This document shows positions 35,323 through 39,054 of a DNA stretch of 64,000 nt, piece after piece. Source of the stretch: an uncultured Brachyspira sp. (GTDB lineage: Bacteria > Spirochaetota > Brachyspiria > Brachyspirales > Brachyspiraceae); NCBI RefSeq assembly GCF_944390845.1, contig NZ_CALXRM010000007.1, forward strand, positions 1 to 64,000. Direction: 5' to 3'. Under the pieces are notes generated by a model. It worked only from the letters and a program-made list of their open reading frames with translations, searched no databases and was not told where the DNA came from. The position numbers and the translations under genes were made by a program. Positions within the stretch are counted from its first letter, which is position 1. Each line of letters begins with the position of its first letter.

Positions 35323-37626
35323 TCATCTCAATTCCGACAACACTTCATTATAAGCATTTACAACTTCTTCTATTGATAATTTTCTCCACTCTTTTAATTT
35401 ATTCTCTCTTTTATATCTCAAAAATATTTTATTGCCCACAAACTTAGCATAAGGATTTGGATAATATATATTTAATGAATAACTAAGTCGGTTCAAACGC
35501 ATTGATTCAGTTCTTAATGCCTTCTTTATTATATAAAAAGGACATTTCACTTTTACCATAAATTTATTAGCATCTTCAAATACCACTCCCTCATAATCTA
35601 TACTAAAATCATCAACATATTTATGAATCATTTGTTCTACATATTTATTATATTCATCTTTTGAAATATCATCTTTAGGAGCTTCAAATATCTCTATTCT
35701 TTCCTTTACTTGAAATTGTTCTGTTATATCTTTACTTGATAATTCTTCATAGGAAAGTTTTCTGAAATTTTCTTCATTGTAAATTACATCAAGCAAAACT
35801 AAAAAAGATTTATCATAAACTATCGGATGTGCTGAATCTTTTAAATGTATGCATTCAAAAACAAATGTAGTATTATTTTTCTTACAATAATTTTTTATAA
35901 AGTTTTTATTTTCTTCAGTTAATAAACTTTCTGCCCAAGAAGCCATTGATGTGCCTATTGAACTTTTAGTAGCAAATATTAACTCGTCTCTTGTTTTATC
36001 TAAAAATACTAAAAATAAATACCCATTATATTTTTTATAAACACTTACAGGAAACTTTATATTATTTTGTAAGGCTTTTAATTTTGTTTCTTTTACTTCA
36101 TCATAATTGAAGAATTTATCATAACTTCTTCCTGCAATTTCATTTGTTTCATTGTATCTATATAATCCTCTAGCTTTGATAGTTTGTTCATTCCATAATC
36201 TTTTATAAAATACTCTGTCTGAAAAATTAGTAGAATAAACTGTATCATAATATTTATGTCGTACAAGTTCGCTGTCGTTTTTTTCTTTATCAAATAGATT
36301 CTCGATTTCCTTATCATTCTTATAGCCTTCAACAGACAAATCTTTTAAATTAAGAATAATTAAATCTTCTCCATATTCAACAGAATTTTCTATACAATAA
36401 ACATTATCATTTATTTTGCATAAATTATCTTCCAATTCTTCCTGAAGAACATTCCTATGTCCGAATATTTGAATAATATCCGAATGATTTTCTTTAAATC
36501 TATTTCCTACTTCTATATAAGATTTATAACTGTCATCATCTTCAGTATATCCATAAGTTACTATTCCATTTAAAATAGATGCTGGAATATGCTCATACAT
36601 TTTATCTATACCTGAATGGTTAATAAAAAACTTCTTTCCTTTAAAAGTGAAAAAATAATAAAGTCTGAACTTCTTATAAAAATTTCTTATTTTCTTTTTA
36701 TAATTATTTAATTCGCTTTCATTTAATATCTTTTCTTCTGCTGTGTTATTATCCTCTAATTGTTTAGTTACATTAGTTACAGTAAATGCTTTCTTAATTT
36801 CTTTGTATGTTGTTTTATAAAATTCCTGACTTGTAACTTTCATATCATTGGCAAAGAAATTTAAACTTACATCATGGTTGCCTTCGGTAAAATAAACATT
36901 GCTTCCTATATCATTATATAAAAAATAATCTAGTAATTCTTTTGATTTTGATCCTCTGTCTATTAAATCTCCTACAAATATATAAGCTGTTTTTTTATCA
37001 TTAAAATAATTTTCTTTCTCTAAAAACTTTTTAAATACATCATATTCGCCATGCAAATCTGGTATCACTTTTATATTATCATACTTTTCAAATTCTGTTT
37101 CATTAAGATAAAAACTATCCCATTTACTAGCTTCAAGCAAAGCAGTTTTGGCACTGTCATAATCTGAAGCTTTAAAAATATTAGCACCAGTTAATTTAAA
37201 ATTTTTCATACGCATAAAAAAGTCTTGTATAACTTCTTCTGGTATATTGCTTCCTATCTCTCTTTTTCTTACATTGTCAATGCATTCTTTTAATGATAAA
37301 TTATCAAATAAAACTGCTACAATTCTATATCCGTAACTTTTTGCAAGTTCTATTATATTATTTAAATTAAAAAGTCCAGTACTGTCTAATATAGTAAATA
37401 GTCCCAATCTGAATCTATTTTCTAATATGCTTGGTATTAAATTATTCCAAATATATGCATTATCTTTTTCATAAATAGAAAGTCCATTATAGCCATCTGG
37501 AAATACACCAGAATATAATATTCTTAAACTATCTGAACTTACACTATATTTATCAAGATTAGCTTTCTTTATAGTATAGCTTTTTCCGCTTCCAGGTGCT
37601 CCGACTGTGATAATTAATACTTTCAT
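35323..37626 (-). CDS. Three-domain RNA repair enzyme: kinase-phosphatase-RNA ligase
   Basis: A 767-residue multifunctional protein. Residues 1-165 are a P-loop polynucleotide kinase-like domain (GAPGSGKS at 9-16, DSTG at 81-84). Residues about 185-425 are a calcineurin-type metallophosphatase (DLHGEYD at 190-196, GDLIDRG at 219-225, GNHD at 249-252, GH at 389-390). Residues about 470-767 are a T4 Rnl1-like nucleotidyltransferase: ARGLYRY and SYDKFFNYDE ahead, motif I KYNG with K532 as expected AMP site, FVFECIH at 588-594, YEGVVFE at 678-684 and VKVK at 691-694. It should heal 5'-OH and 2',3'-cyclic phosphate ends and seal them. The layout recalls Pnkp, without a Hen1 partner nearby. A Nudix gene ends 2 bp upstream. 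Confidence 0.85.
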   Translation of the reverse strand: MKVLIITVGAPGSGKSYTIKKANLDKYSVSSDSLRILYSGVFPDGYNGLSIYEKDNAYIWNNLIPSILENRFRLGLFTILDSTGLFNLNNIIELAKSYGYRIVAVLFDNLSLKECIDNVRKREIGSNIPEEVIQDFFMRMKNFKLTGANIFKASDYDSAKTALLEASKWDSFYLNETEFEKYDNIKVIPDLHGEYDVFKKFLEKENYFNDKKTAYIFVGDLIDRGSKSKELLDYFLYNDIGSNVYFTEGNHDVSLNFFANDMKVTSQEFYKTTYKEIKKAFTVTNVTKQLEDNNTAEEKILNESELNNYKKKIRNFYKKFRLYYFFTFKGKKFFINHSGIDKMYEHIPASILNGIVTYGYTEDDDSYKSYIEVGNRFKENHSDIIQIFGHRNVLQEELEDNLCKINDNVYCIENSVEYGEDLIILNLKDLSVEGYKNDKEIENLFDKEKNDSELVRHKYYDTVYSTNFSDRVFYKRLWNEQTIKARGLYRYNETNEIAGRSYDKFFNYDEVKETKLKALQNNIKFPVSVYKKYNGYLFLVFLDKTRDELIFATKSSIGTSMASWAESLLTEENKNFIKNYCKKNNTTFVFECIHLKDSAHPIVYDKSFLVLLDVIYNEENFRKLSYEELSSKDITEQFQVKERIEIFEAPKDDISKDEYNKYVEQMIHKYVDDFSIDYEGVVFEDANKFMVKVKCPFYIIKKALRTESMRLNRLSYSLNIYYPNPYAKFVGNKIFLRYKRENKLKEWRKLSIEEVVNAYNEVLSELR

Positions 37627-37628
37627 TT

Positions 37629-38138
37629 TTATTCTCCATTATTTAATTTATCATAAATATCATAAAAATATCTTATAGAAGAAATTATCTCTCCGCTTTT
37701 GCACATCTCTAAATACTTTTCTCTGTTTACTATCATAGCATCACTAACTTCATTCTCCTGCAAAACTAAATCCTCAATATTAACATCTCTTCTAAACATA
37801 TAAGAATCTATTATAGTTTTTACTCTTTTCAAGATAAAAGAAGTTAAAAACACAGCTTCCTCTTTTTCAAAAGATAAACCGATTTCCTCTTTAAGTTCTC
37901 TGATAGCTCCATCAATACTTTCCTCGCCTGCAAGTATAGAACCTTCAGTACATTCCCATTTATTAGGACAAATTTTTTTACTCTTATGTCTTTTAGTAAT
38001 TATAACTTCATCATTACTATTAACTACCCAAGCATGTATAACTATATGATAATCATTTTTCTTTAAAGGTATTCCCCTCTTATGAAATCTTCCTGTTTTA
38101 TTTTTATTAATATCATATATATCCCAAATCTCTTTCAT
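37629..38138 (-). CDS. Nudix hydrolase paired with the RNA repair gene
   Basis: A 169-residue Nudix protein. The Nudix box starts GSILAGEE and continues through GAIRELKEEIGL, with the three metal-binding Glu residues in place. N-terminal WDIYDINKNKTGR and the HIVIHAWVVN strand resemble the IDI/YfcD-like group that acts on nucleotide or isoprenoid diphosphates. The ATG at 38138 is preferred; the longer frame begins with TTG. It ends 2 bp before the RNA repair gene, implying co-translation and a linked job, perhaps end-processing of RNA or removal of a nucleotide by-product. That link is inferred. Confidence 0.82.
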   Translation of the reverse strand: MKEIWDIYDINKNKTGRFHKRGIPLKKNDYHIVIHAWVVNSNDEVIITKRHKSKKICPNKWECTEGSILAGEESIDGAIRELKEEIGLSFEKEEAVFLTSFILKRVKTIIDSYMFRRDVNIEDLVLQENEVSDAMIVNREKYLEMCKSGEIISSIRYFYDIYDKLNNGE

Positions 38139-38171
38139 AAACTTTACCAAACATTAAATATATTTAACAAT

Positions 38172-38247: not shown

Positions 38248-39054
38248 TTATAATATAAATTTCAAGGCTCTTAGTATTTCATAATAGTCATTATTTTCAA
38301 AAATTACTGTAGTATCATTAATTTTTTTCGCTCCGGGGTAAAACGATACTTTATGAGCGTATCCATGTTCCTTATAACATACTTCTAATTTGAAAGTATT
38401 AGGCAATTTTAATAATTTACCCTTAAAATCCTGACTCAAAGCCTCTTTAGTTTTTTCTTTAATCATCTTAACCATTAAATTAGGTGAATAATTTATAGTA
38501 GAATAACCTATACCCTCTTTAACTGGAAGCGTTACCAAATTAGGGTGATTAGGCTGCATATTTTGTGCAACTTCGCATAATCCCTTATCGCCGGATAAAA
38601 ATACTGTAGGAACTTTTCTATAAGCTGCAGCATAACTAAAAAACATAAACTCGCTTGCCAAAACATCATTAAGCTTTACATAAACATTTCTAGTATTCAT
38701 GGTATGTGAAAGCGGATTGTTTCCAATAGAAGCAGCATTATGGTATCCGATAAACATTATAGCATCAAAACTTTCATCAATACCTTCTACCATAGAATAA
38801 GGATCGCCGCTCCATCTTCTATGTATTTTCACGCATTCAGGCAAAGCAGTTTGATCTATATTCATAGCAGAATCATGGGCGTCTTTTACAAATATTTCTT
38901 TTGCTCCTGCATCAATAGCTCCCTCACATGCTGCATTAACTTCTTTAGTCATTTGCAAAGTATGTTCTTTATAAGTTAAACTTCCTGCATCAGTATCAGG
39001 CCATTGTGTAGTTGTAGTAATTCCTTCGATATCAGCACTAATAAAAACTTTCAT
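38248..39054 (-). CDS. dppA: M55 family D-aminopeptidase
   Basis: A 268-residue zinc peptidase of the DppA family and normal length. Metal-site residues are present: Asp8 and Glu10 in SADIEGI, His60 in KDAHDSAMN and His104 in FIGYHNAAS. DppA frees D-amino acids, mainly D-Ala, from short peptides and forms a ring-shaped decamer. In this genome it may recycle cell wall D-peptides. It stands alone, ends in its own terminator and is not part of a dipeptide transporter operon. Confidence 0.92.
   Translation of the reverse strand: MKVFISADIEGITTTTQWPDTDAGSLTYKEHTLQMTKEVNAACEGAIDAGAKEIFVKDAHDSAMNIDQTALPECVKIHRRWSGDPYSMVEGIDESFDAIMFIGYHNAASIGNNPLSHTMNTRNVYVKLNDVLASEFMFFSYAAAYRKVPTVFLSGDKGLCEVAQNMQPNHPNLVTLPVKEGIGYSTINYSPNLMVKMIKEKTKEALSQDFKGKLLKLPNTFKLEVCYKEHGYAHKVSFYPGAKKINDTTVIFENNDYYEILRALKFIL

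Follow-up and report, generated by a model that had tools for sequence, protein, structure and literature searches.

Can a single bacterial protein heal and seal broken RNA without the help of Hen1? The question is raised by a gene on the reverse strand of the window (the whole 64,000-nucleotide stretch of chromosomal DNA that was analysed, from the gut spirochaete Brachyspira), at positions 35323..37626, which starts with ATG, runs without internal stop, and encodes a kinase–phosphatase–ligase RNA repair protein of 767 residues (P0001). It is quite probably a self-contained, Hen1-independent RNA repair enzyme, in which Pnkp-like healing is joined to Trl1-like sealing, and which represents the Brachyspira branch of a mostly phage-borne family.

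Domain architecture and catalytic residues

The protein holds a polynucleotide 5'-kinase domain at its N-terminus (residues 4–140; 37207..37617, minus strand; AAA_33, PF13671, 5e-11), with the P-loop GAPGSGKS and residues K15, D32, R35, and R122. This is followed by a calcineurin/lambda-type metallophosphoesterase domain (residues 185–397; 36436..37074, minus strand; Metallophos, PF00149, 1.3e-13) bearing D190-x-H192, GD220, GN250H251, H337, and GH390, and by an ATP-dependent RNA ligase adenylyltransferase domain (residues 484–698; 35533..36177, minus strand; RNA_lig_T4_1, PF09511, 1.1e-29), whose residues include R486, K504, F506, the nucleophile K532 (KYNG), K554, E591, H600, E679, K692, and K694. 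The remaining residues, 696–767 (35326..35541, minus strand), correspond to an all-helical C-terminal subdomain of the Trl1 type, as assigned from the AlphaFold2 model, the profile alignment, and a table of alignment columns.

All three catalytic domains score above their curated Pfam cut-offs, and their key residues are conserved across the family. K15, D32, R35, D81, and R122 in the kinase and D190, D220, R224, N250, H251, H337, and H390 in the phosphatase are invariant in the 80 full-length viral homologues (80/80), as are R486, K504, K532, N534, G535, K554, E591, E679, K692, K694, and R705 in the ligase; F506 is shared by 77 of these 80. The catalytic residues are likewise invariant in a mixed set of 24 homologues, except for R122, H337, and N534, each present in 23. 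Between Brachyspira species, the dN/dS of the whole gene is 0.10–0.16 (about 0.11), and it stays below about 0.22, well under 1, for every domain and species pair tested; all three domains are thus under purifying selection. The invariance of these residues, together with the low dN/dS of each domain, means that none of the domains is degenerate. The initial annotation, made from the sequence alone, had proposed three domains with intact catalytic motifs, and the Pfam scores, the invariant residues, and the selection analysis all bear this out; no degenerate domain emerged from the profile searches, and the lead-in motifs that it had described are found at residues 485–491 (ARGLYRY) and 501–510 (SYDKFFNYDE).

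The AlphaFold2 model of the protein has a mean pLDDT of 82.9 and a pTM of 0.54, a value that leaves the relative placing of the domains unsure. Beyond residue 700, local pLDDT is about 56–74 and the region is modelled as entirely helical. In Foldseek comparisons, the kinase part matches the kinase of Clostridium thermocellum Pnkp (CthPnkp) with a TMt of 0.70–0.76, and the phosphatase part matches lambda phosphatase with 0.72 and the CthPnkp phosphatase with 0.65–0.67.

A family carried mostly by phages

The protein belongs over nearly its full length to the phage family phrog_8238, annotated as 'RNA ligase', whose profile (positions 1–695 of 737) aligns with residues 1–723 at 9.1e-122, and the catalytic residues are common to phage members and the Brachyspira protein. 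The phage collection contains 141 matching records, 112 of which cover 80% or more of the protein, from Staphylococcus Twort-like and other phages, as well as Lactobacillus, Brochothrix, SPbeta-like, and Fusobacterium phages. Among the matches listed in IMG/VR, at least 182 loci encode such a protein, and 80, all full-length, were retained; in this search of viral contigs, a single-protein query gave no match and an alignment was needed as query. A three-domain architecture unique to Brachyspira is rejected by these data, since phrog_8238, the phage records, and the IMG/VR loci share it. The distinct, self-contained system envisaged in the initial annotation therefore survives in part: the protein does lie outside Pnkp and has no Hen1 (see below), but it is not a one-off, given 112 phage records, at least 80 IMG/VR loci, and plasmid copies.

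Members such as Twort ORF008, Lb338-1 gp41, and Brochothrix A9 gp147 from Herelleviridae, as well as those from SPbeta-like and Fusobacterium phages, share the three domains and their order with the Brachyspira protein along almost its entire length. Unlike the Brachyspira proteins, which form a long branch of their own, they are phage-borne, with identities of around 30%; phage, viral, and plasmid homologues are about 22–33% identical to the Brachyspira protein. In the kinase–phosphatase tree, the Brachyspira branch is nested in the phage radiation, on weakly supported branches, and the gene may have passed from phage to host. Bacterial copies outside Brachyspira, among those reached, lie mostly on phage-like plasmids, and within Spirochaetota the full-length protein is found only in Brachyspira (393 genomes sampled). 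No paper characterising this family, nor any measured activity, was found in the literature searched, although an earlier in silico mention is possible.

In some Staphylococcus phages (S-CoN_Ph8, S-CoN_Ph15, Alsa_4, Romulus, and Remus), the repair gene is split or truncated; the split form appears in the annotation as a pair of RNA ligase ORFs, and Romulus and Remus match residues 349–705 only. On the Bifidobacterium longum plasmid NZ_CP084013 (L073:1475-3981), a separate metallophosphoesterase gene lies directly upstream of a kinase–ligase fusion of the same family, and the Aneurinibacillus plasmid NZ_CP116888 (L066:4001-5685) carries the kinase–phosphatase half without ligase, followed by an HD-domain gene. 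The repair gene is also present on NZ_CP084075.1, a Fusobacterium vincentii record entered as a plasmid that, at 2.1 Mb, has the size of a chromosome and is probably a mislabelled one.

A ligase closer to fungal Trl1 than to T4 Rnl1

The ligase belongs to the Rnl1 superfamily, as indicated by its PF09511 score (104 bits against a gathering cut-off of 28.3) and by the presence of motifs I, III, IV, and V together with the N-terminal R/K/F residues. Within this superfamily, profile comparison, fold, and tree all place it nearer to fungal Trl1 than to T4 Rnl1. The ligase profile of the family matches fungal tRNA ligases at 7e-36 and 8e-27, as against 3.5e-18 for T4 Rnl1, and the first of these matches covers residues 39–354 of C. 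glabrata Trl1, running through the helical C-terminal subdomain to the last residues of Trl1-LIG; a direct BLASTP comparison with T4 Rnl1 gives E=2e-7. The ligase part of the model matches Trl1-LIG with a TMt of 0.60–0.65, versus 0.54–0.56 for T4 Rnl1, and the ligase tree, despite long branches, splits the family and Trl1 from T4 Rnl1 with an SH-aLRT of 96%. The initial description of a T4 Rnl1-like ligase is thus not the best one, fungal Trl1 being the closer relative.

Chaetomium Trl1 binds a sulfate close to its active site through four residues, Arg334, Arg337, His227, and Asn150, of which two are essential in yeast (PMC6592678). Asn150, His227, Arg334, and Arg337 correspond by alignment columns to N534, H600, K702, and R705 of the Brachyspira protein, with a lysine for the arginine at 702. 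Across the 48 aligned family members, the columns of 702, 705, 600, and 534 always hold K (one R), R, H, and N, whereas T4 Rnl1 holds H, K, I, and D. A further motif, II-x-LRN-x-F, is common to Trl1 and many phage members and is degenerate in Brachyspira. The C-terminal domain of Trl1 was described in 2019 as having no relative elsewhere in its superfamily (PMC6592678); the phrog_8238-type family provides a relative for it.

Despite these similarities, the protein is not a Trl1 as a whole. Fungal Trl1 is also trifunctional, its ligase and helical C-terminal domain are the closest solved structures, and the quartet is common to both, but its order is LIG-KIN-CPD, with the ligase at the opposite end of the protein, and it has a 2H cyclic phosphodiesterase rather than a calcineurin-type phosphatase (PMC3400036). 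Likewise, T4 Pnkp and Rnl1 resemble the Brachyspira protein in having a P-loop kinase and an Rnl1-superfamily ligase, with equivalents of R54, K75, F77, and K99. They are, however, two proteins, with a DxDxT phosphatase, a T4_Rnl1_C domain (PF20819), and no quartet, while the Brachyspira enzyme is a single protein in which the Pfam search found no T4_Rnl1_C.

The affinity to Trl1 raises the alternative of a Trl1-like route, in which the phosphatase would stop at opening the cyclic phosphate, leaving a 2'-phosphate that the ligase would require, and KptA/Tpt1 would clear the resulting 2'-PO4 junction. The quartet, absent from T4 Rnl1, argues for this route, although the part of the sulfate site in 2'-PO4 recognition is a surmise of the source paper (PMC6592678). 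KptA is encoded in 12 of the 13 Brachyspira species that carry the repair gene and in 17 of the 18 species of their clade, but in none of the eight other Brachyspira species and in only five of about 172 other spirochaetes sampled (Fisher p=0.011 for KptA versus repair gene in Brachyspira, kinship uncorrected). In genome G000, KptA is an intact ORF of 186 residues encoded elsewhere than the repair gene. Against the coupling, all five non-carriers of the clade keep KptA (one as a pseudogene), so that the two genes were mostly lost independently and the correlation amounts to one clade, and RtcB exhibits a similar pattern. Furthermore, of 60 phage or plasmid records that encode the enzyme, only four also match KptA, two of these weakly and in part, and KptA as a general partner is therefore unsupported in phages; the 94 KptA-bearing phage records come mostly from other phage groups. 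Taken together, the clade-bound correlation, the RtcB pattern, and the phage records make a coupling with KptA possible in Brachyspira and unlikely as a general rule, and the Trl1-like route as a whole is considered unlikely. The KptA/Tpt1 pseudogene is that of G022 (G022:C12:9320-9825), with six stops, in a genome where the repair gene is lost as well; the other copies found in the clade are all open.

A fixed chromosomal site in Brachyspira

Within the genus, the repair gene is present in 13 of 26 species, with orthologues in 12 other Brachyspira genomes at 83–91% protein identity, which together with the low dN/dS speak against a chance match. In all carriers it sits after the genes of an M55 peptidase and a Nudix hydrolase, with two genes inserted between in one case. 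In the window, the Nudix hydrolase gene (37629..38150, minus strand; PF00293) lies directly upstream, separated by 2 nt, and both are probably co-transcribed; the M55 D-aminopeptidase gene (38248..39054, minus strand; PF04951) heads this M55–Nudix–repair gene module, whose synteny is conserved in the clade. The Nudix gene is present in 23 of the 26 species, whether or not they carry the repair gene, and is therefore regarded as a neighbour, its role as an obligatory partner being rejected.

Genomes G009, G022, and G017 exhibit a clean absence of the repair gene at the same site, G011 retains fragments of it, and the copy of G019 has one in-frame stop. On the tree of M55 and Nudix, the presence pattern requires at least four gain or loss changes and is best explained by one acquisition before the 18 species of the clade diverged, followed by repeated loss. 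The Brachyspira branch is old, chromosomal, and inherited vertically, within a family that elsewhere is borne mostly by phages.

On the other side of the M55 gene, the interval, bounded at its far end by a conserved MFS or asd gene, is an integration hotspot of Brachyspira with varying cargo (loci L030–L042 and L051; in the window, from 39243). This cargo comprises MmeI-type IIG restriction-modification, HEC-02A/B-like AAA proteins, an HTH-M78 protein with a DUF4411 PIN protein, and TPR-DUF2971 (PDC-S31) proteins, and the interval of the window itself encodes a PD-(D/E)XK transposase-type protein. Such cargo hints at a setting of conflict, but is not confined to carriers. The enzyme could accordingly be imagined as part of a defence system, for instance resetting RNA after the action of an abortive-infection nuclease encoded in the neighbouring hotspot, and 11 of the other 12 carriers do have defence-type cargo beyond M55. 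Nevertheless, this cargo varies and also adjoins M55 in the non-carriers G011 and G022, and the repair gene receives no PADLOC score. The ends left by PIN nucleases, moreover, do not usually call for healing, and a role in defence is accordingly held to be improbable.

It is still less probable that the gene is a recent phage acquisition, devoid of cellular role and retained only in cryptic prophage remnants. Its relatives elsewhere are indeed mostly on phages, but the fixed chromosomal site after M55 and Nudix in every carrier, the purifying selection described above, and the lack of any viral relative above ~32% identity argue against it.

Distinction from the bacterial Pnkp/Hen1 system

The profile of bacterial Pnkp (TIGR04075) reaches only 51.2 bits with the 767-residue protein, against a cut-off of 750, and aligns with residues 3–396 only, that is, with the healing half. 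The Pfam search did not find the Pnkp ligase domain (PNKP_ligase, PF16542) in the protein, and the ligase profile of the phrog_8238-type family gave no match to Pnkp ligase domains up to E=10. In the kinase–phosphatase tree, nine Pnkps form a clade of their own, separated by very long branches from the phage and Brachyspira family. As for Hen1, no match above the curated cut-off of TIGR04074 was found in the 26 Brachyspira genomes, so that it is missing from the whole genome and not merely from the neighbourhood of the repair gene. The initial statement that no hen1 lies nearby holds, and so does the suggested distinctness from Pnkp/Hen1, since no tree put the protein inside that clade.

A divergent bacterial Pnkp belonging to a Pnkp/Hen1 system, as the shared domain order and the distantly related kinase and phosphatase (residues 3–396) might suggest, is thus practically dismissed, with membership ruled out by profile score, ligase type, tree, and absence of Hen1. 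In C. thermocellum Pnkp and in the plasmid-borne pair of Leptospira noguchii, the kinase–phosphatase–ligase order and the related healing domains are the same, but the ligase is of the PF16542 type with an adjoining hen1, whereas the Brachyspira ligase is of the PF09511 type, without Hen1. The Leptospira example, on plasmid p3 (L065:2584-6550), is a genuine Hen1–Pnkp operon near an IS982 transposase gene; its Pnkp scores 1427 bits with TIGR04075, carries PF16542, and is adjoined by hen1.

Proposed mechanism and biological role

After cleavage by a metal-independent endoribonuclease, which leaves 2',3'-cyclic phosphate and 5'-OH ends, the calcineurin-type domain would open the cyclic phosphate and then remove it, wholly or in part, and the P-loop domain would phosphorylate the 5'-OH end. 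The ligase domain would then adenylylate itself on K532, pass the AMP to the 5'-phosphate, and seal the strand. In Pnkp, an insertion blocks the ligase, which depends on Hen1 for its activity (PMC4411300). As the 767-residue protein holds another type of ligase, Hen1 would not be required, and independence from it is a reasonable expectation.

T4 Pnkp and Rnl1 offer an analogue in tRNA repair (PMC3400036), by which tRNA is also a likely target of the 767-residue enzyme. The phage members probably repair tRNA cut by host defences, while the Brachyspira enzyme probably protects cellular RNA, with tRNA as its most likely target. The repair of tRNAs cut by ribotoxins, put forward in the initial annotation, is a putative role; no anticodon nuclease of the PrrC or RloC type was found in the Brachyspira genome of the window.

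The phage family is common in Staphylococcus, Lactobacillus, Bacillus, and Fusobacterium phages, where it is apparently uncharacterised and probably acts as a single-gene counter to tRNA-cutting defence. In bacteria, Tpt1/KptA is widespread, yet no bacterial pathway to RNA with an internal 2'-PO4 is known, a longstanding conundrum, and E. coli is without a yeast-like RNA ligase (PMC6333775). It is for this lack of a bacterial source that a coupling with KptA would matter. It is rather doubtful that the enzyme seals through a 2'-PO4, 3'-5' junction, giving bacterial KptA/Tpt1 its missing substrate; in that case, the ligase of Trl1 would be phage-derived or share its origin with that of the family, and the system would be a bacterial and phage counterpart of fungal tRNA-splicing chemistry. 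The occurrence of a Trl1-type ligase and an intact KptA in the same bacterium suggests a bacterial source for a 2'-PO4 mark that has no known bacterial maker, and makes the link between both directly testable.
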